Source: Candidatus Rifleibacterium amylolyticum
Lineage (GTDB): Bacteria; Muiribacteriota; Ozemobacteria; Ozemobacterales; Ozemobacteraceae
Assembly: GCA_009917695.1 (NCBI GenBank)
Contig: JAACJG010000009.1
Location: forward strand, 248,001 to 312,000
Reading direction: 5' to 3'
DNA: 64,000 nt
The notes beneath the pieces were generated by a model that saw only the letters and a program-made list of their open reading frames with translations, ran no database searches and had not been told where the DNA came from. Every line of letters begins with the position of its first letter. Within the stretch, counting starts at the first letter, position 1. The translations under genes and the position numbers were made by a program. This document shows, one piece after another, positions 44,652-54,744 of this stretch.

Positions 44652-45647
44652 TCAGCGCAGAACCGCAAACTTTTTGAATGAGCTTAATACCTGGCGAACC
44701 TGGGCTTTGCGGTCTGCCAGAGAGCCGTGCAATATGATGTAGGGAATTTTGCGGCGATGCAGGTCGTCGATTACCTGCTGCTGCATGTCGGCGCGATTGG
44801 CTTCGCCGGAGCGATCGGGGCTGTCTTCATACGGAATGTCGGTATCGCACAAAAAATACAGATCGTAGCGAGACACACAGGCATCTGCCAGTCTTTCCAG
44901 TTCTTCTGTAGCGCTGCCATGATAGTAATGTGCAAAGATCCTCGTCGTCAGGGCATTGGTGTCGGTAAACAGGTATTTGCGGGCCTGCAGTAACATTCTG
45001 TCTTCACGCACGAGATGACCACGCGCGATTTCGACAAGCTGGTCAGGCGTCAGACGGTGATTGACCTGGTGCTGATCCCAGTATTCACGGCCGTATTCAG
45101 GCATCCAGACCGTCTCATAGTCTGCCGCCAGACTCTCAGCAATAGTCGTCTTGCCGGTCGATGGTGCGCCTACGAAAACAGCATTGACAATGTGGTCGCG
45201 ATAGACGAGATCGCTCAAGAACTGGCGCGAGGCATAAGGGTCAGAGCGAACCAGAGAGCCCGAAACCGGCACTGTATTACGGTCGATATCAACTGTACGG
45301 TTAACCGCATTTAGAGCGCGACTGACATGGTCGCCATAAGGCTCGCTCGAATAAAAATGAGTAATGCCCTTATCGCGAAATCGCGAAAGAATATAGGCAT
45401 CGTGCATCTGCGTTATTTCAGGCGAATAGCCAACTTCAGTCGGGCCATCCCAGGCTTCGATCAGATTAACCTGCGGATAAAGTTCTCGAATCCAGCGGGC
45501 GCGCACCGGCATTGGAACGCTGTACGGCTCAGGGCTCGGATAAATCATGACATAAAGCTGATCCATCTCGCGCAGAGCCGTCTCGATAACCAGCTGATGA
45601 CCTTTATGCAGCGGCGAATACTTGCCGAGAGTCATGCCGATCTTCAT
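44652..45647 (-). CDS. nadR: Bifunctional NMN adenylyltransferase / nicotinamide riboside kinase
   Basis: This 331-residue protein matches NadR. The N-terminal nucleotidyltransferase domain has GKYSPLHKGH (HxGH at 14-17) and VSGSLVRSDP (the ISTxR-like motif). The C-terminal kinase domain has Walker A GAPSTGKTT (160-168). It phosphorylates nicotinamide riboside and adenylylates NMN to NAD. There is no N-terminal helix-turn-helix, so it lacks the repressor domain of the enterobacterial protein. The pnuC gene overlaps its start by four bases, forming a nicotinamide-riboside salvage pair. Confidence 0.94.
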   Translation of the reverse strand: MKIGMTLGKYSPLHKGHQLVIETALREMDQLYVMIYPSPEPYSVPMPVRARWIRELYPQVNLIEAWDGPTEVGYSPEITQMHDAYILSRFRDKGITHFYSSEPYGDHVSRALNAVNRTVDIDRNTVPVSGSLVRSDPYASRQFLSDLVYRDHIVNAVFVGAPSTGKTTIAESLAADYETVWMPEYGREYWDQHQVNHRLTPDQLVEIARGHLVREDRMLLQARKYLFTDTNALTTRIFAHYYHGSATEELERLADACVSRYDLYFLCDTDIPYEDSPDRSGEANRADMQQQVIDDLHRRKIPYIILHGSLADRKAQVRQVLSSFKKFAVLR

Positions 45648-46246
45648 AGCGCCGGCTCCAGGTCAGGCATTTCTGCTTCTTCGTTCGATAACGTTTTAAA
45701 AGTGCTGCGCCAGCGCAGTAGCCCGGCAGTCGCCATAAACAGAAATGCTATGTACAACACCCCGGTAAGATAAAGATCTTTGGCAAAATAGACGCCGATC
45801 GCGACAACGTCGACAGCTATCCAGAAATGCCAGTTTTCGAGTTTTTTACGCGACAACAGCCATTGCGCGGTCAAACTGAAAACGGTGGTAAAAGCATCGG
45901 CATAAGGAAGAGCAGCATCGGTGCGACTGGCCATGAACCAGCCAAGCAACAGCGTGCCGGCTGCAGAGCCGACGAGACAGGCAGAAAACCACGTGACTGA
46001 AAGTCGTGTTATACGCGCTTCTTTGCGCAGATTGCCGCCATGCAGCCAGTAATACCAGCCATAAATATTCATGGCAACGTAGACTATATGCAGAATTACG
46101 TCAGAGTAAAGTTTCGCCTGATAAAAGACAAATATATAGAGAGAAACCTGCAGAAGCCCGGTCGGCCAGCACCAGATATTCTCTTTTATCGTAAAATACA
46201 CGCATAAGAAGCCGGCAATTACCGCTACAACTTCGATCGGACTCAT
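45644..46246 (-). CDS. pnuC: PnuC-type nicotinamide riboside transporter
   Basis: The 200-residue membrane protein has about six to seven helices and PnuC hallmarks: WCWPTGLLQVSLYIFVFYQAKLYSD near the N-terminus and SRKKLENWHFWIAVDVVAIG in the second half. PnuC carries nicotinamide riboside by facilitated diffusion; NadR traps it by phosphorylation. The ATG overlaps the PaaK-like gene's stop (ATGA), and its own stop overlaps nadR. Confidence 0.94.
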   Translation of the reverse strand: MSPIEVVAVIAGFLCVYFTIKENIWCWPTGLLQVSLYIFVFYQAKLYSDVILHIVYVAMNIYGWYYWLHGGNLRKEARITRLSVTWFSACLVGSAAGTLLLGWFMASRTDAALPYADAFTTVFSLTAQWLLSRKKLENWHFWIAVDVVAIGVYFAKDLYLTGVLYIAFLFMATAGLLRWRSTFKTLSNEEAEMPDLEPAL

Positions 46247-47592
46247 TTTTTGATATCTGCCTCAGTAAATTCGCTCGAATAGCTGACCTTTTTACCTTCA
46301 CCGCTCGCAGCCGCTTCGATTGTAACCTCCAGCTGGCTGCTGCCGAAAATCTGCGTCAAGACGTTGCGAATATCTTCTTCAGCAGCGCTACCCCAGCCGA
46401 CGAACTCTACCTTGTGGTCTCTGCCCTGATGCAGCTTGAAGCCGGCCAGCATGAATTCGCACATCGCCCGCGAAATATCGACATTATTAACAAAGCTGCC
46501 ATCACCGCCAATAAAGACTACTGGAGCCCGGCCGGCAAGGTCATAAAGATAAAGCACATCACCGTCATGTCGTAAACAACCGTAATCGCCGGTGCGGTAT
46601 CTGATCAGCGGTAAAAACGGGTTTATGCCGCCGGTCACTGTTATTTCACCACGCTCACCAATGGGCATCGGTTCATCTTTGTCAGCATGAAGGATTTCGA
46701 CATATAGATCAGGGCGTATCAACCGATAGACGCCAGCCTGCCTTGCCACACCAATCATGCGACATTCTGTCAGTGAGTAAATGTCGTAGACCGGGCAGCC
46801 GAACTGCTTTTCGAGACGCCGACGCAGACCTTCCTGCAAAGTCATCGCCGAAGAAACCAGTGCTTTCGGCTTGATCTGCGGTTTCATCTCTGCCAGCGTA
46901 AGAAAGGTAAAAGGATCACCGGTCAGAATCTCAGGATCGTATTTTTGCAGATAGTCGATGCGGTCTTCGGGCTTGCGCCAGTCGGCCGGGTTGAGATTTA
47001 TCTTCAAGATGCCGGCGCCACGCAGATAAGTCGACAGCGAAGCGTAAGTCAGCGTCGATTCCTGGTTACACACCAGGCAGATCGAGACCCGCCCTGCCCC
47101 GCCTTCGAGACTTATTCCATCAGCTGCCAGTATCGCTTCGAGCTGAGCGATCCAGCACGCCTGCGAAACTGCGTCGAACATTACATCCATCGGCGCTCCG
47201 GTAGAGCCCGAAGTATTGTAGACAAGCATGTCGTCTGGATCACATTCGTCAGAAACATACTTCCAGGGCCGGCCGGCAATCTGCTCGCGCCGCAAGGATG
47301 GCATCTGCAGAAATTCCGGTTGATACGACCTGTAGGCCGGCACGGTAGCCCGGCACCAGCAGAGAAATTCAGGCATCCAGTCAGGCAAACTGTCTTTCTG
47401 CCAGAACTGCTGCGCTCTTGCCCGCCCGGCGTAAGCATTGACCTGTTCCAGCTTTTCTGAGGTCAGACGGTCGCCAGAGCCAAAGTTAAAAATCGGCGCG
47501 CTGCTGTCCTGGCGCAGTTCTTTGAGAAAGCCCAGATCTTCGAGCAACGGAAATCTTTCGTTATCAGACAATACTGCTACTGGTTTCATCAT
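46243..47592 (-). CDS. PaaK-like adenylate-forming ligase
   Basis: The 449-residue enzyme belongs to the phenylacetate-CoA ligase branch of the ANL superfamily: the AMP-binding loop YNTSGSTGAP, the YDIYSLTECR motif, and LIRYRTGDYGCL are present. It should activate a carboxylate as acyl-AMP, possibly passing it to CoA or another thiol or amine. The small size and N-terminal form resemble PaaK and coenzyme F390 synthetase relatives. It lies between the VWA module and pnuC, overlapping both neighbours by four bases, an uncommon location. It may attach a group to a protein or metabolite in this system, but that is inference. Confidence 0.85.
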   Translation of the reverse strand: MMKPVAVLSDNERFPLLEDLGFLKELRQDSSAPIFNFGSGDRLTSEKLEQVNAYAGRARAQQFWQKDSLPDWMPEFLCWCRATVPAYRSYQPEFLQMPSLRREQIAGRPWKYVSDECDPDDMLVYNTSGSTGAPMDVMFDAVSQACWIAQLEAILAADGISLEGGAGRVSICLVCNQESTLTYASLSTYLRGAGILKINLNPADWRKPEDRIDYLQKYDPEILTGDPFTFLTLAEMKPQIKPKALVSSAMTLQEGLRRRLEKQFGCPVYDIYSLTECRMIGVARQAGVYRLIRPDLYVEILHADKDEPMPIGERGEITVTGGINPFLPLIRYRTGDYGCLRHDGDVLYLYDLAGRAPVVFIGGDGSFVNNVDISRAMCEFMLAGFKLHQGRDHKVEFVGWGSAAEEDIRNVLTQIFGSSQLEVTIEAAASGEGKKVSYSSEFTEADIKK

Positions 47593-48158
47593 TCTCTTCC
47601 ATATACGTTGGCGGCTTCGCGGGCACGCTGCTCAGCCATCTGCCGGCGCAACAGCTTGGCTCTCTCTTCAGCGGCAGCCGTCTCTTCGATCACCTTGATG
47701 CGCTTTACCGTGTTGACGGCATCAAAGCGGTCAAGAGCTTCATCAGGAGTTTCGCCGGCCGGCACGTAGCCACTGCATTTTAGTATCATGCGCGCCAGCT
47801 CTTCGGCGCGCTGTTCATCTGTAATCCAAAGTTCGCTTTTTACGTGCGGCGCAACTGTTGCCAGCTGCGACCAGAAAACCTCATTGAACCAGCCATTATC
47901 GATCTTTGCAAAAAACGGGTGAGTCAATATCCAGCAGCAGATCTGAATCAACAACAGCTCGGCGGCGCTGCGACGATCGGCAGTCAGCATGGCTTTTCCC
48001 GGCGCGGTCGACTGCTGCAGTAACCTGCGCAACACATCGTTCACCAGAGCTTCGCTGTTAACTTCGCCTTTACCGCGACGAATCGGCGCGGCAAGAAATT
48101 CAGCTGGACAACGTTTGATATGGTGAATCAGCTCAGATATGGTCGGCACTTCTGTCAT
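47589..48158 (-). CDS. Helical protein of unknown function in the MoxR-VWA operon
   Basis: This 189-residue protein is predicted mostly helical, with a long charged C-terminal helix (about 145-189, rich in Arg, Glu and Ala). I recognise no domain. It overlaps the VWA gene and the PaaK-like gene by four bases each (ATGA junctions), so the three are translated together. It may be an adaptor between the VWA protein and the ligase; this is only inferred from position. Confidence 0.7.
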   Translation of the reverse strand: MTEVPTISELIHHIKRCPAEFLAAPIRRGKGEVNSEALVNDVLRRLLQQSTAPGKAMLTADRRSAAELLLIQICCWILTHPFFAKIDNGWFNEVFWSQLATVAPHVKSELWITDEQRAEELARMILKCSGYVPAGETPDEALDRFDAVNTVKRIKVIEETAAAEERAKLLRRQMAEQRAREAANVYGRE

Positions 48159-49951
48159 TGTCGTTTTCCGGTTCTGTCGTAGAATTTTCGCGAAAATGCC
48201 CGGGCAAATGCCACAAGCTCTTCCTCTTTGGTAACATAATGAATCTTCCAGCCCATTTTTTCAAGTCGGCTGACGCCACCAGCACTATAGTGAGGGCGGG
48301 AATGCAACACCAGAGTTCCGCCGCCTCCGGCGCGAACCAGGGCTTTTTCAGCAACATCGTAATTGAGCTCACCATTTGGTGCCCTGGCATCGAGCATTGC
48401 AAAGATATCGTCGTCGGAGACAATCAGCAGATGTGTTTTACTCTTCGGTTTATCCAGATAAGGAGACTGAAGTCGCGGAATACCGTAGGCATATCCGGTT
48501 CCCAGATATGATGTCAACACCAGCATCGTATCATACTCAGAAGTCACAAAGCCATCAGACTCGAGAAAACTGCCAGGTTCGCCCGACAGACAGCTCATGA
48601 CTTTTGCTCCGGCCCGCAGTGCTGAAAGCGTGATGATCGAAGCGGCGCAGATCGGCCAGGAAAAATTGTAGCGCGGGTTGCGCATAGAGCCGGAGCAGTC
48701 GATGCCGACGTAGAGGTTGTAAGGCTGCGCCTTGCTCGGAGTGTCGGTATCCTGAGTATAAACACGGCTGCGCGTGGTTACCCCGGGCACTACAACCGGC
48801 GACATCACCGTCGTTTCGAACCAGTCGAGTTCTTCGACCGGGTCGCCCGGCTCCCACTGGTCGGTGCCTTCAGGCAGCAGATCAGCGAGTGGCGCCGATT
48901 CTTCTTCAGGAAAAGGCACAAGGTGTGGCATGGCAATTTCGCGGTAATAGCGGATAATCAGCTTGTTTTCGTCGGCAGCCGGATCGACCTGCCGCATCAT
49001 ATCGATGTAGGTGCCTGGCTCTGAATACCTTTTCTGCGGCCCGGTACCGCCCTGAAGCGAACGCATATCTGATATTTCTGGGCGCCGACCGGTTTTTTCA
49101 TCATCGGCAGCGTTATCGCTGCTGTCTGAGCTTTTTCCCAAAGCCTCAGCACGCGGGTCGACGATGCCATCCAGTATCGATTCGTCGATTTCGGCCATGC
49201 CGCCGACAACTTCTGCGCCGGCCCCTGATTTTTCGGCGTCAAGATAGCGTGCCAGTTCCTGGCGTGCCTTGTTGTGTTGCGCATCTTCGATAAGGTAAGG
49301 GTAAGCCAGCATGGCAAAACGGCCGGCGCCATCGAGCCAGTTGCGGGCGTAGCTGCGAATAAGAGACGCTGCCAGCGAGGCATCGGCATCGAGCTGTGCT
49401 GTCTGTTTCCCGCCAGAAAGATCGCCGCGCGGCAATCCCCAGAGATATTCATAAGTTCGCATATACCAGATATGAAGAGTTGACTCGATTTTGGCATTCT
49501 GCTGGATTTTGCGATAAACCGACGCCATATCGAGCTGATGAATGCGCTGCAGAGTGTCGTTGATCACGAGGTCGCTGTAAAGGTTCGCCACCAGCGGGGT
49601 TCGGTCTTCGATGCCGGCCAGCGCCAGTCGCATGCGACGAAAAAGACCGACATTATCGTAGCGGTTTGCCGGAATCAGCACATGATGGCCGATTTCGTGT
49701 GCAAGGATCTGCACGGCGCAGTCGCCAACCCGGTGGCGACACACAGAGTCGAGGTCGATGACAACACGATGATCGGTGAGTCTGATCATGGCGAAGCTTC
49801 CGGTCAGGCCTTCGAGTTGCGCATCCTGCGCTGACATGCACCAGGTTGGCTCGCGCAAAGTAACGTATGGGCTCCAGATAGCGACTGCCTGTGGCCAGGC
49901 TTCGACCCAGCTTTTTTTGACGCGGTTGACGGTAACGACCGTATCAGCCAT
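48155..49951 (-). CDS. Metallopeptidase-like and VWA domain protein, DUF2201-type
   Basis: The 598-residue protein has an N-terminal domain with the zinc motif H85-E-I-G-H89-H90, a middle helical part and a C-terminal VWA-like domain whose metal site is D418-C-S420-G-S422. This pairing is that of putative metallopeptidase / VWA-like proteins (DUF2201 type) that work with MoxR AAA+ ATPases. The ATG has GGAG six bases upstream and overlaps the previous gene by eight bases. The VWA MIDAS could bind a partner whose folding or assembly the MoxR ATPase drives; the active-site glutamate suggests real proteolysis, which needs testing. Confidence 0.82.
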   Translation of the reverse strand: MADTVVTVNRVKKSWVEAWPQAVAIWSPYVTLREPTWCMSAQDAQLEGLTGSFAMIRLTDHRVVIDLDSVCRHRVGDCAVQILAHEIGHHVLIPANRYDNVGLFRRMRLALAGIEDRTPLVANLYSDLVINDTLQRIHQLDMASVYRKIQQNAKIESTLHIWYMRTYEYLWGLPRGDLSGGKQTAQLDADASLAASLIRSYARNWLDGAGRFAMLAYPYLIEDAQHNKARQELARYLDAEKSGAGAEVVGGMAEIDESILDGIVDPRAEALGKSSDSSDNAADDEKTGRRPEISDMRSLQGGTGPQKRYSEPGTYIDMMRQVDPAADENKLIIRYYREIAMPHLVPFPEEESAPLADLLPEGTDQWEPGDPVEELDWFETTVMSPVVVPGVTTRSRVYTQDTDTPSKAQPYNLYVGIDCSGSMRNPRYNFSWPICAASIITLSALRAGAKVMSCLSGEPGSFLESDGFVTSEYDTMLVLTSYLGTGYAYGIPRLQSPYLDKPKSKTHLLIVSDDDIFAMLDARAPNGELNYDVAEKALVRAGGGGTLVLHSRPHYSAGGVSRLEKMGWKIHYVTKEEELVAFARAFSRKFYDRTGKRQ

Positions 49952-50888
49952 CAACCGCTCCGAACAGAAAAACCGAATGAGATGAAGCTGTGGTCAGAAA
50001 AAGAGTCGAATCGTGCTGTGCCCAGGTCGTGAGATCCTTGTAGCGACCAAGTATTTTCGCCGCCGCGCCGGTGGCAGAAGAAACCGGGGCCAGCTTAAAA
50101 TCAGCCGACCCGTCAAATGAATCAGAGCACTCAAGCAGAACACAGCCAAAGCGGTCGGCAAAAACAACCCCAGTCTGCTGACCATCAGAGACAAAAACCA
50201 TGTTGTCGCGCAATATCAGGCGGGGCGGGCGCATGAATTCGCCGCCAAAGCCTTTGAAGCTGCCAACAGCGACGCCTTTTAAAGTCTCACCCTGAGCCCA
50301 CGGGCGTTTTAAATCAGGGCCAAAAGGCATATCGCCAAAAACAGCTGAAATAATCTCAGGTTTCGGCCTACGTTCAAAGTCAAGTTGCTGGCGAAGATGC
50401 GCCATACCGCAGCGCCAGGCGGCGAAGCGACCTGCGACCAACAGTTCATCAAGATCGACCACCAGCACCAGGATTTTCTGCATCATGGCGATCCAGGACC
50501 GTGCTGCTGCCGTCGAGTGGCGCAGAATCTTTTTAACAGCAGTAGTAAGTGATCTGAGCAAACGCGCCGGGTTGGCCGCAGTCAACTTCGGGTTCAGCAG
50601 CAACAGAAGCCGGCAGGCCTGGTGCAGTTCAAAATCTGCGCCGGCGGTGCCGGATGCCAGAAAATCGATGGTGTCGCGAAACAGCACATCAAAGACTTTT
50701 CGACTGCGTGTTTTGTCGAGCTCATGAACCGCGGCAAACACCGGCTCGACCACATTCTTGAACCAGGCCGGCACAACTGCCGGATCAAAACGGTTCGAAG
50801 CGGCGGCAGCCTGACGCAACGCCTGGTTAAGTGCATCGGCATTTTCCCGCAACAGTTCAACAAGCGGTTTACAGACTATTTTTTCCAT
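49944..50888 (-). CDS. Unknown protein between MoxR and VWA genes, possibly propeller-like
   Basis: This 314-residue protein has a helical first half (about 1-165) and a beta-rich second half (about 170-314), where short strands such as MVFVSDGQQTGVVFADRFG, LLECSDSF and STLFLTTASSHSVFLFG recur. Known MoxR-VWA systems often carry a third, beta-propeller (bpX) component, so this could be a divergent equivalent; I cannot confirm that from sequence. It starts 13 bases inside the end of the MoxR gene. Confidence 0.65.
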   Translation of the reverse strand: MEKIVCKPLVELLRENADALNQALRQAAAASNRFDPAVVPAWFKNVVEPVFAAVHELDKTRSRKVFDVLFRDTIDFLASGTAGADFELHQACRLLLLLNPKLTAANPARLLRSLTTAVKKILRHSTAAARSWIAMMQKILVLVVDLDELLVAGRFAAWRCGMAHLRQQLDFERRPKPEIISAVFGDMPFGPDLKRPWAQGETLKGVAVGSFKGFGGEFMRPPRLILRDNMVFVSDGQQTGVVFADRFGCVLLECSDSFDGSADFKLAPVSSATGAAAKILGRYKDLTTWAQHDSTLFLTTASSHSVFLFGAVDG

Positions 50889-52465
50889 TTGAGCCAGCGC
50901 CGATAATTGTTATATCTCTGATGCAGGTATTTGAGCTTGAGAATGTCATCAGCCATGTGACCGTAGATTTTGCCCGATCTGGCCATTGTTGCCAGCTGTT
51001 TTTCGATAGCATTCATGCGCTTTTCGACCTCAGTTTTTGAGATGCCTTCGAGCCCGGCCTCGAATTCTCTCTCGAGAGTGACAACCGGGTCTGATTTCTG
51101 CAGGCCGAGCCGGAAATATTCTTCGCAGGAAAGATCAAAAAGCTTGCGCAGCCAGCTGATGCGATCGACCCGATAAGCTTCGTGACGCGGTTCATCGAAG
51201 AACGGCGACTCGAGATGCGGGCTGAGCGTGTCATGCAGCACAAACGGAATGATCTGCCTGAGATCTTCAAGCTGAACGCTTTGCGAACCGCGAAAATACG
51301 CGAGCGCCTTGGCAAACTGAATTATAGTCATGAGTTTGCGCACCGACAGGCCATTTTTTGTCTGCGAGCCAAGGTCGCGCACAAGATCTTTCCCTGATTC
51401 TTCGCCACTCAGAGTACGAAAATCGAGACCAGAAAGCTTGGCAGTATCTTTTGTCATGTATTCGAGCATTGTTGAAGCAGGCTCAAAAAACTCAAAATGG
51501 CGACAGAAAAACTCGAGCGGCCGCCGCACGCTGTCATCTATGGCAACCCGGCGAATGTCGCGGTTCATCTGCGACAGCTCGGCTTCAGTGAAAATGATCT
51601 CTTCAGGAATCATCTCTTCCGGGCGCACCGACAGCTCGATGCGCTTTTGCAGCTCTGATAAAAAGCGGGTATTGAAATGAAAAGCGCGAATAACGATATC
51701 TATGCGGTCGCGCAAAGCCTCGATAACCTGATAAGTGCCGCCACCGCCATCGTCGTTGGCAGTCAGATACCAGGCGGCATCAGGGCATTCATAAACCTGG
51801 TCGAGTATTTCGGCATAGTTGTCAGCCAGCACGGTAAGCAGAGCAGACTGCGTTCGGGTCGGAATGCGGTTATATTCGTCGATAATCTTAACCCTCATCG
51901 ACAGCCATTTACGCCACGAAATTCTGATCTCAGACATGCTGTCGGCCTTGACCATATCAGCCGGTAACGGGTGTCCGAGCAGATCGGCAATCGTCATCTG
52001 CGGCTGACCATGCTGAATGGCACGCTTAACCTCGATCTGCGAATAACCGGCCAGCAGCCCCATCAGTATAGCTGTTGCGGTTTTGCCGCGACCTGGCCCG
52101 CCGACGATGAGACAGCGCCCACGCACCGCCATATTGAGCAGCGGAATCAGCACAAAACTCGAATAACTCTGGCCCGTTGGCAGGGCCAGCTCGATTTTGC
52201 GGTCGCCCATCTGAAAGGTGCGCGGCGGCTCGTCGTTGTATTCGATATCATAAAACGGGCTGATAATCGCTGTATTGGTGATCCAGAAATACGCCTGGCG
52301 CAGCTTTTCATCGAGACCGGCACTCTCTGAGCGACTTTCGGGCTGGTCGCTCTCATAAAGGTCTTCGATTCTAAATTCCGGCCGTTTTGTCGGAGCCTGT
52401 GGATTGGTCGGCGATGCCGGCACCCGTTGAAAAATTTCTTTTGCCTTGTCAAAGATACTTGCCAT
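50876..52465 (-). CDS. MoxR-family AAA+ ATPase
   Basis: The 529-residue ATPase has Walker A GGPGRGKT (122-129), Walker B IIDEYNRI (D196, E197) and sensor-1 WYLTANDD. The N-terminal 90 residues and about 200 C-terminal helical residues exceed the compact MoxR size of about 330. MoxR ATPases act as chaperones that insert cofactors or remodel complexes together with VWA proteins. It is encoded immediately before the unknown and VWA proteins, and 8 bases after the DUF-like gene. Confidence 0.88.
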   Translation of the reverse strand: MASIFDKAKEIFQRVPASPTNPQAPTKRPEFRIEDLYESDQPESRSESAGLDEKLRQAYFWITNTAIISPFYDIEYNDEPPRTFQMGDRKIELALPTGQSYSSFVLIPLLNMAVRGRCLIVGGPGRGKTATAILMGLLAGYSQIEVKRAIQHGQPQMTIADLLGHPLPADMVKADSMSEIRISWRKWLSMRVKIIDEYNRIPTRTQSALLTVLADNYAEILDQVYECPDAAWYLTANDDGGGGTYQVIEALRDRIDIVIRAFHFNTRFLSELQKRIELSVRPEEMIPEEIIFTEAELSQMNRDIRRVAIDDSVRRPLEFFCRHFEFFEPASTMLEYMTKDTAKLSGLDFRTLSGEESGKDLVRDLGSQTKNGLSVRKLMTIIQFAKALAYFRGSQSVQLEDLRQIIPFVLHDTLSPHLESPFFDEPRHEAYRVDRISWLRKLFDLSCEEYFRLGLQKSDPVVTLEREFEAGLEGISKTEVEKRMNAIEKQLATMARSGKIYGHMADDILKLKYLHQRYNNYRRWLKWKK

Positions 52466-52473
52466 ATTTCTCT

Positions 52474-52992
52474 TTATCGATCCATTTCAGGGAAAATATT
52501 CCAGCGCTTAAGACGCGCTTCTGGAGTTAATTCAAATTCGAGATTCAAACCTGATCGCGCGAAAGTCAGAACGATTTCATCACTGTCGAAATCTTCAGAG
52601 CTGGCTTCACCAAAGATCTTTCTAAGCTCATCAGCTGTGGTATCTGATGTAAACTGCGCGATCTTTTTCAGCCAGGGCTGTGCTAATGCCATCTGCGGAT
52701 GTTCAGGAAGACAGGCATCAGGCCCGATAAAAAAGGCGATATAACGCAGACGGCCATCTTCAAAATCGATCTGAAAACCGTAGCGTGCATACAACAATTC
52801 ACAATATTTACGCCCACTCCAGCTGAACTTGTCAGGACGCCCAAAAGCATGAGCGAGATCAAATTCACAGCCAAAATGCAGAGGTCCGAAACTTAGATCT
52901 TTCAGGTCAAAATCAGGTAATTCAAATTCAAGTACAGACCAGTCCTTAGTCGGGTCTTCCTTTCCCAGGCCGAGAAAATCTAATATGCCCAT
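52474..52992 (-). CDS. Unknown 172-residue protein upstream of MoxR
   Basis: The protein is acidic, with a Gly/Leu N-terminus and alternating aromatic beta strands (WSVLEFELPDFDLKDLSFG and GFQIDFEDGRLRYIAFF), then a C-terminal helical part. No family is recognised. It ends 8 bases before the MoxR gene and should share its transcript. The ATG is preceded by AGGAGCTCAGGT. Confidence 0.65.
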   Translation of the reverse strand: MGILDFLGLGKEDPTKDWSVLEFELPDFDLKDLSFGPLHFGCEFDLAHAFGRPDKFSWSGRKYCELLYARYGFQIDFEDGRLRYIAFFIGPDACLPEHPQMALAQPWLKKIAQFTSDTTADELRKIFGEASSEDFDSDEIVLTFARSGLNLEFELTPEARLKRWNIFPEMDR

Positions 52993-53067
52993 ACCTGAGC
53001 TCCTTTAACACTGATAATCGCTCATAAACTTCTGCCAAATACAGCAAATGCTGTCAAAACTTATATT

Positions 53068-54744
53068 TCAAGAAGATATTTCACCGCTGATCACAAATTC
53101 TTCGGCAATTTTTACTGCTGCTGCAGTCCTGGCCGAAGTAAGAATCCTGGCAAGGAACTCGAGATGGGTTGTGGCCGCCTGATTACCTGCTTTCAAGGCC
53201 AGGTCGAAACAGCCGTAAGCAAGAATTATATGACGCAGAAACCCCTCACAGCCACATTCAAATAGTTCGCCAAGATTAAACCAGCGACCTTCACCACCGG
53301 TCAGAACCCTCTCTTTCAGGCTCTTATTGGCTTTGGCAATAGCTTTGACTTTCTTTTGCTTGTCATTCAACCACTCTTGTGCCTTACCGAGAGTCTCTAA
53401 CAGCTGATCGAATGTGATTTCGCGTTCGATCATTTCCATTGGATTCGGCCGCGGAATTCTGGCACCGAAGTATTGCGCCAGATTCAGCCATTTGTGTGCT
53501 TCCTTCAGGTCAACTGGAATACCATTGCCCCTGAAGTTAATCATCCCCCAGATGTACATTGCCCTGGCATTGCAGTTGTTGATTTCATCAAAAAATCTTG
53601 CCTTAACCCATTCACGGTCGATCTTAAAATCCTGGTCGTTACCAATCTGGTTCCAGGCGAATTCCACCGAAGGCAGCCAGCCTCGTGAAATGGCAGTGAC
53701 CACCATTTTAACAGCTTCTTTGCTATTTTTCTCAAGACCATCACCAGTCGCCAGCTTTTCACCAAACCGCGCCATAGCTGGAGCATACCGGTCTTCAGAG
53801 AGTGTACGATAACGTTTCTCAGATTCCTGATAGTCGAGCAAAACCGTTTTTAAGCTGCGACCATCGAGAATTTCAGCATATCTATAGGTTCCCTCAAGCT
53901 CGCCATAAACTTTTTCAAGGTTGTCACAAATCTTCTTGCGCCGGTCAAACTGCCCCCAGACCTTGCGCAAGGCAACAGAAGCGCCTTCCTGTGCTTCCAG
54001 CACCTCGGCCAGCGACATTTTGGAGGAAATGCTGTCACGCAGACTTACACAGGCGAAATCACCAAAATAGGCCCCCAGATTCAGCCATTTATAGGCTTCA
54101 ATCAGGTTGATGCCAACTGAGTGGTTTTCTGAGTAAAGTTTGCCAATGCGTGAAAAGGCCTGGGGTAATCTTTTCTGGGCGGCCTTTTTATACCATTCGA
54201 GCGCCAGATTGAAATCTCTGATTTCTACCGGCCCGGTTTCGTACATCTCGCCCAGACGGTATTGCGCCAGCGAAAAGCCGGCCTCGGCAAATGGCGTATA
54301 TTTTTCGAAGGCCTCTGAATAAGCCCAGTTCTCGAGAGCCCTTTCGGCTGCCATAAAATCTCTGATTTCAGCATCTGAAGGAAATTTTTTCTCGATTTCA
54401 CGGCGTTTATAAAAATCGTCCCATTCATTCACGAAAAAACATTGCGGACATACCGGTCGGCCAAGATAAATCGGGTGGTAACTTTTTCGCGGGCCCTTGC
54501 AGGTAAAGCAGAATCTCAGTGCTGGCCTCAACTCATCCAATACCGCATAGTAGTCGGCTTTTTCAGTAAAGTAATCGATGTCATCAGCCTGCCAGGTTTT
54601 CATGAAGTATTTGCCACACAGCTGACAAAACCAGACCTCATCTTTGGGCGCATAAGGAGCACTGAATTTTACTGGAGAAATATATGCCATGCGCAGTTTG
54701 CTGCCGCAAAAACATAGCGGTTCATGGGCATCAGTCAGTTCCAT
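53068..54744 (-). CDS. Sel1-repeat protein with two N-terminal zinc ribbons
   Basis: The 558-residue protein starts with two cysteine clusters: C-x-C-G ... C-x2-C-G (about 12-43) and C-x2-C ... C-x2-C (about 79-102), each able to hold a zinc ion. It continues with Sel1-type TPR repeats, seen in GEMYETGPVEIRDFNLALEWYKKAA, NLIEAYKWLNLGAYFG and VDLKEAHKWLNLAQYFG. Sel1 proteins are adaptors in stress and secretion pathways. It heads the long gene run and is followed after 75 bases by the unknown protein before MoxR, so membership of the same operon is likely but not certain. Confidence 0.82.
   Translation of the reverse strand: MELTDAHEPLCFCGSKLRMAYISPVKFSAPYAPKDEVWFCQLCGKYFMKTWQADDIDYFTEKADYYAVLDELRPALRFCFTCKGPRKSYHPIYLGRPVCPQCFFVNEWDDFYKRREIEKKFPSDAEIRDFMAAERALENWAYSEAFEKYTPFAEAGFSLAQYRLGEMYETGPVEIRDFNLALEWYKKAAQKRLPQAFSRIGKLYSENHSVGINLIEAYKWLNLGAYFGDFACVSLRDSISSKMSLAEVLEAQEGASVALRKVWGQFDRRKKICDNLEKVYGELEGTYRYAEILDGRSLKTVLLDYQESEKRYRTLSEDRYAPAMARFGEKLATGDGLEKNSKEAVKMVVTAISRGWLPSVEFAWNQIGNDQDFKIDREWVKARFFDEINNCNARAMYIWGMINFRGNGIPVDLKEAHKWLNLAQYFGARIPRPNPMEMIEREITFDQLLETLGKAQEWLNDKQKKVKAIAKANKSLKERVLTGGEGRWFNLGELFECGCEGFLRHIILAYGCFDLALKAGNQAATTHLEFLARILTSARTAAAVKIAEEFVISGEISS

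Follow-up and report, generated by a model that had tools for sequence, protein, structure and literature searches.

The locus described here raises the question of why a MoxR-clade AAA+ ATPase and a VWA-domain protein should share an operon with an adenylate-forming ligase, and whether this arrangement is more than a chance adjacency. It lies in a stretch of 64,000 nucleotides of Candidatus Rifleibacterium amylolyticum (GenBank assembly GCA_009917695.1, contig JAACJG010000009.1, positions 248,001 to 312,000), which is called the window below and numbered from its first letter. A preliminary description of this DNA had proposed a strictly ordered, overlapping set of five genes, for the ATPase, a two-part protein (here U314), the VWA protein, a helical protein (HEL189) and a PaaK-like ligase (LIG). 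All five were found, with order and overlaps matching, but the set does not end at the ligase, since the genes of PnuC and NadR, for salvage of precursors of nicotinamide adenine dinucleotide (NAD), continue the chain. The core is a MoxR-VWA couple and the combination as a whole is undescribed. Judged from the sequences, the genes compose one module and are inherited together. They are as follows:

50876..52465, minus strand: MoxR-clade AAA+ ATPase, 529 aa, with Walker A GGPGRGKT and Walker B VKIIDEYNR; AAA_3 above the Pfam cut-off
49944..50888, minus strand: U314, with a helical N-terminal domain (about residues 1-200) and a beta-rich C-terminal domain carrying a GxFxGFGGxF...PP motif; no known family
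48155..49954 (or from the ATG at 49951), minus strand: VWA protein, with an N-terminal zincin-like domain (HEIGHH...NLYxDLxIND) and a C-terminal VWA domain with a metal-ion-dependent adhesion site (MIDAS; DCSGSM)
47589..48158, minus strand: HEL189, 189 aa, a helical domain and a long C-terminal helix with the conserved tail ...AANVYGRE-COOH
47589..47612, minus strand: codons of the HEL189 tail (...NVYGRE) and stop codon; a similar tail occurs on unrelated membrane proteins upstream of LIG in two genomes (G112 and G084)
46243..47592, minus strand: LIG, adenylate-forming ligase (ANL superfamily, PaaK-like), 449 aa, with TSGSTG, YSLTE, YRTGD and the C-terminal Lys
45644..46246, minus strand: PnuC, nicotinamide riboside (NR) transporter; NMN_transporter E 2e-57, NCBIfam equivalog above cut-off
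44652..45647, minus strand: NadR, nicotinamide mononucleotide (NMN) adenylyltransferase and ribosylnicotinamide kinase without the repressor domain; TIGR01526 at 151 bits over the full length

From MoxR to LIG, successive genes overlap by 13, 11 (8 with the ATG start of the VWA protein), 4 and 4 bases. The LIG/PnuC and PnuC/NadR junctions also overlap by 4 bases each, and the operon thus runs past the ligase.

Searching contigs from one genome per species with a profile of the VWA protein gathered 80 loci, 53 of which were well flanked, with at least 5 kb on each side. Homologous loci that never carry the ligase or the helical protein would be expected from a chance adjacency, and the result was the opposite. 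HEL189 was present at 50 and LIG at 49 of the 53 well-flanked loci, so that both co-occur with the VWA protein across phyla and are true partners, as the preliminary description had supposed. MoxR and U314 were each found at 51 of these loci, NadR at 43, PnuC at 27 and a radical S-adenosylmethionine (SAM) gene at 15, and the recurrent order was MoxR-U314-VWA-(radical SAM)-HEL189-LIG-(PnuC)-NadR. The module occurs in at least nine phyla: Riflebacteria (the window's own group), Bacteroidota, Planctomycetota, Chloroflexota, Acidobacteriota, Nitrospinota, Myxococcota, Verrucomicrobiota and several classes of Proteobacteria. No flanking gene was common across the module loci, and the clusters seen were confined to a single genus or generic; because the flanks vary between loci, the module is sharply bounded. 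NadR and PnuC take at least five placements (downstream, convergent, upstream, divergent and split) that differ by lineage, and their link was therefore re-made or kept through rearrangement. Pairwise protein distances correlate with r of 0.85-0.95 for every pair of components without PnuC, and of 0.72-0.83 for pairs with it. In the trees of both the VWA protein and LIG the window's group stands beside Bacteroidota in a joint clade with full support, and two genomes from the window's own family are placed elsewhere. This pattern, common to both trees, suggests that the module was transferred as one unit.

The association also holds beyond the locus. Among 57 related genomes, LIG scored above 300 bits in exactly the seven that have the VWA protein and in none of the 50 that do not. 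NadR was found in the same seven, in one fragment of the same genus at a contig edge and in a single genome from another phylum. We also searched with the LIG profile 20 genomes that have the VWA protein, mostly picked because their locus had no LIG or a truncated one. Of these, 19 have an orthologue scoring 230-670 bits, with two of the lowest values from contig-edge fragments, and generic relatives stayed under 90 bits in this search; nearly all full-length LIG members score 390-670 bits and generic PaaK-like proteins below 100. In the exception the best score was 43 bits, and its locus runs into the contig end. A LIG absent from the locus is thus nearly always present elsewhere in the genome. 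Three of the unlinked LIG units retain their salvage genes (HEL189-LIG-NadR/PnuC at L102, LIG-PnuC-NadR at L103 and HEL189-LIG-PnuC-NadR at L106), and four have no PnuC-NadR nearby (L104, L105, L107 and L108). From these units it appears that the system can divide into two half-operons. In a sample of 250 genomes of the order Burkholderiales, the VWA protein was found in three and LIG in five.

The C-terminal tail of HEL189 gives a possible connection between the parts. Among 75 HEL189 homologues, 65 end in RE and 73 in E. Two of the five Burkholderiales genomes with LIG (G084 and G112) have no match to the VWA protein, MoxR or HEL189. In each, LIG overlaps the gene just ahead of it, whose product is a membrane protein with no relation to HEL189, and these proteins end in ...QEAADKWTRE (346 aa, L115) and ...EDGSDKYTRE (145 aa, L114). 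Such a tail was found in only two of the 12,906 non-HEL open reading frames of the loci, each of which adjoins LIG on its 5' side and overlaps it. On this pattern of endings and positions, the tail is portable and goes with the ligase. The LIG proteins of G084 and G112 nest in the tree among MoxR-associated proteobacterial ones, so that these genomes have probably lost the machine but retained the tail, now on a different protein. We suggest that LIG requires the tail, most likely as a docking peptide. The nearest analogy is DltX of the dlt operon, a small protein whose conserved C-terminal motif is needed by an operon with an ANL ligase (PMC11035591). It is an analogy only, as the motif and the enzymes are unrelated to those of the module, and the DltX motif has been proposed to bind DltB and not the ligase (PMC11035591). 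Our first idea, that the tail is a ligand of the VWA MIDAS, is less likely because the tail is also found in genomes without the VWA protein. A Trp or Tyr of the tail modified by the radical-SAM enzyme is unlikely because the aromatic residue is not conserved. At four loci (L057, L060, L063 and L089) the HEL189-LIG pair is duplicated with a radical-SAM gene between the copies, and the tail of the second copy is ...KAMRE or RMMRE, which suggests that the copies are cognate pairs.

Instead of docking the ligase, the tail might be its substrate. LIG would then adenylate the alpha or gamma carboxyl of the C-terminal Glu and conjugate it to an acceptor, a pyridine nucleotide or another compound, in some cases with a radical-SAM step, and the MoxR-VWA zincin machine would process or release the product, as in a one-peptide modification pathway. 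The terminal Glu in 73 of 75 homologues would agree with this, as would the exchange of the carrier protein with the tail still directly upstream of LIG and the radical-SAM gene with four extra Cys at about 20 loci. However, two homologues carry one more residue, a Trp, at the C-terminus, the residues ahead of RE vary, and the window locus, like most loci, has no radical-SAM gene. We also know of no ANL enzyme that activates a protein C-terminus, and this explanation seems to us improbable. In its full form, a portable peptide on unrelated adaptors would have its terminal Glu activated and joined to a group derived from NMN or NAD, with a radical-SAM step in some lineages and processing or release by the MoxR-zincin-VWA proteins. 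Such a pathway would add a new type of protein modification or of peptide-derived cofactor, and we regard it as a distinctly long shot.

As for the chemistry, LIG matches AMP-binding (E 4e-13) and has the ANL core motifs including the C-terminal Lys, and its assignment as an adenylate-forming ligase in the preliminary description agrees with Pfam and NCBIfam. Among solved structures PaaK-type ligases come closest, and the best NCBIfam score is 88 bits to DVU_1553 (cut-off 300). LIG shares its core motifs with PaaK-type ligases, coenzyme F390 synthetase and the DVU_1553 family; it differs from them in forming its own clade and in being paired with a tail-bearing protein. Acyl-adenylation is its predicted activity. 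The ligase is split into two open reading frames in a metagenome-assembled genome (MAG) of the same genus (G001, L019:2352-3673), by a frameshift, decay or an assembly error. The radical-SAM protein, seen at about 20 loci and absent from that of the window, contains a CX3CX2C motif plus four other invariant Cys and appears SPASM/twitch-like; it resembles many SPASM families, all below threshold. At L116:1253-3012 (Burkholderiales) and L107:6708-8431 (Myxococcales), a pair of radical-SAM genes unlike this one, of about 235 and 346 aa, comes after LIG.

PnuC matches the PnuC structure 4qtn, and the NadR family profile matches the NadR structures 8x7f and 1lw7 at 220-236 bits. Both domains of NadR were found, and the TIGR01526 score of 151 bits is below the equivalog cut-off of 341, so that specificity for NR and NMN is likely, not proven. 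NadR is cut down to its adenylyltransferase domain at four loci of Chloroflexota. At L030:13602-15605, in a Bacteroidales MAG, a gene for a TonB-dependent receptor lies between LIG and PnuC, as expected for the uptake of an outside compound. The full domain matches are those of known PnuC-NadR salvage, which here is linked to LIG and a MoxR-VWA couple. It is conceivable that PnuC and NadR perform ordinary vitamin salvage and are simply co-regulated, while LIG supplies an unrelated pathway, matured by MoxR-VWA, with an acyl-CoA or acyl-adenylate. PnuC-NadR pairs are known elsewhere (PMC7221760), and one without the module was seen at L117; some genomes have no NadR, and LIG stands without PnuC-NadR at L114. 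However, the association has been kept over at least nine phyla despite repeated rearrangement, NadR in Riflebacteria occurs only with the module save for the contig-edge fragment, and G084 maintains LIG-PnuC-NadR without MoxR-VWA. We hold ordinary salvage to be rather unlikely.

The other half of the module resembles known MoxR-VWA couples. AAA_3 matches the MoxR protein at 34 bits in the genome search and 31 bits by hmmscan (cut-off 27), with AAA_lid_2 also above cut-off, in agreement with the first assignment, and its P-loop is GGPGRGKT in all five aligned sequences. No Pfam or NCBIfam model, including the VWA model of Pfam, matches the VWA protein, and its domains are called from motifs. 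These bear out the proposed VWA and metallopeptidase-like parts (DxSxS and HEIGHH): the MIDAS residues D419, S421, S423 and D514, as well as HEIGHH and NxxxDxxxN, are invariant in 41 sequences. A relation to the DUF2201 type, also proposed, is at best distant. DUF2201_N finds nothing in the window's genome, and hhalign against DUF2201 gave a probability of 30-31% (P 5e-4) with the zinc motifs HExxH and NxxxDxxIN aligned. MoxR-DUF2201 pairs likewise have a zincin-like domain fused to a VWA domain, and the module differs from them in its MoxR and partner set. For U314, an alignment of 47 rows and an AlphaFold2 model (predicted local distance difference test, pLDDT, 93.6) point to a helical and a beta domain; no convincing Pfam match was found among the 47 members, and the best matches of the C-terminal domain in a PDB fold search were mostly propellers and weak (E>=0.1). 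HEL189, modelled at pLDDT 93.9 with the long helix at its C-terminus, had chance-level matches only in Pfam and NCBIfam and no fold match in the PDB, and no homology to U314 was detected. Pfam, NCBIfam and PADLOC offer no family for three proteins of the module.

RavA-ViaA, CoxD-CoxE and NorQ-NorD also have a MoxR-clade AAA+ protein adjoining a MIDAS VWA protein in an operon with client genes; the module differs in the N-terminal zincin-like domain of its VWA protein, which lies outside Pfam models. Regular partners of the kind seen here, a ligase with a tail protein and NAD salvage, are to our knowledge not known from MoxR-VWA couples, and we know of no counterpart to the ligase-tail-PnuC-NadR part, which is able to stand without the machine. 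No description of MoxR-VWA with PnuC/NadR or a ligase was found in the open-licence literature. Family precedent (PMC7159879, PMC3893208) suggests that MoxR, U314 and the VWA protein most likely form an ATP-driven remodelling machine.

The same precedent includes the MoxR-vWA ternary conflict systems (Kaur et al. 2020, PMC7159879), with which the locus had initially been compared and which likewise have MoxR, VWA and a third conserved protein. The module could be a stress or conflict system of this type that consumes NAD, with PnuC-NadR restoring it afterwards. Its core is that of the published systems (PMC7159879), its spread is patchy, as the three of 250 Burkholderiales genomes indicate, and at two planctomycete loci a further nucleotide-related member, a nucleoside 2-deoxyribosyltransferase-like protein, stands between MoxR and U314 (L044:7907-8929 and L049:7885-8898; Pfam E 7e-7 and 3e-6). 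However, the module lacks the testable defining features of four published ternary subsystems. Neither the window proteins nor the 47 U314 homologues matched VMAP, assuming that our Pfam copy includes the VMAP models, and neither an iSTAND NTPase nor an FtsH domain was found in the module by Pfam and NCBIfam scans and locus gene maps. No propeller is fused C-terminal to the VWA domain, which itself sits at the C-terminus. The MoxR P-loop of the beta-propeller class is often, though not always, GXXXTAKS (PMC7159879), whereas that of the module is the canonical GGPGRGKT. PADLOC gave chance-level P-loop matches only, no variable effector was seen and flanking genes are not conserved. Neither 72,556 plasmids nor 50,697 phage records contained a match to the VWA protein, no LIG homologue was found on the plasmids or phages searched, and no viral contig matched the LIG profile. 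With no plasmid or phage copies and no variable effectors, a role in defence is unlikely; membership in the published systems is not supported, and the NAD-consuming version appears to us very improbable.

Instead, we tentatively suggest, at somewhat less than an even chance, that the locus encodes one dedicated system of two half-modules, the remodelling machine and a small-molecule arm of HEL189, LIG, PnuC and NadR. PnuC would bring in NR and NadR would convert it to NMN and NAD, and LIG would activate a carboxylate (or hydroxyl) through adenylation. HEL189 may serve as the adaptor, its tail docking LIG and its helical domain connecting LIG to the machine; where the machine is lost, a membrane protein that keeps the tail would take over this role. 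The machine would position or mature the docked LIG and most likely assemble or activate a complex containing LIG and often the radical-SAM enzyme, which may make or install a pyridine-nucleotide-linked or acyl-type modification. We infer the docking of tail and ligase, the contact of HEL189 with the VWA protein, NR as the substrate, the chemistry and the client. Several observations weigh against this explanation. NadR was not found in five of the 20 genomes searched, some of which are incomplete MAGs, and PnuC is present at only about half of the loci; therefore, NAD salvage is no strict requirement. The tail varies somewhat, with two HEL189 homologues ending in REW and several planctomycete ones in YGE or YTE, and its function is proposed from conservation and position. 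Machine-free genomes with LIG were seen only twice.

An undescribed MoxR-VWA machine is thus inherited with one ligase clade and NAD-precursor salvage in Flavobacterium, Janthinobacterium, planctomycetes and Chloroflexi. For research on MoxR-VWA proteins it would provide a tangible link to small molecules through adenylation and NR/NMN, and the portable tail gives an easily tested entry point to the way in which its parts are joined. Homologues occur in the culturable Flavobacterium limicola, Pontibacter, Roseateles, Janthinobacterium and Stenotrophomonas. At two Janthinobacterium loci (L066:8505-8990 and L080:8526-9011) a 161-aa protein with no assigned family lies between MoxR and U314.

The 172-residue protein placed ahead of the set in the preliminary description is not a member, as only one of the 80 loci, from the same genus, carries it. 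This protein and its Sel1-repeat and ankyrin neighbours were rejected as module members on account of an association at genus level only. The 172-aa and Sel1-repeat proteins (52474-54744 in the window) also adjoin each other at the same-genus locus L016, where an opposite-strand gene stands between the pair and MoxR.

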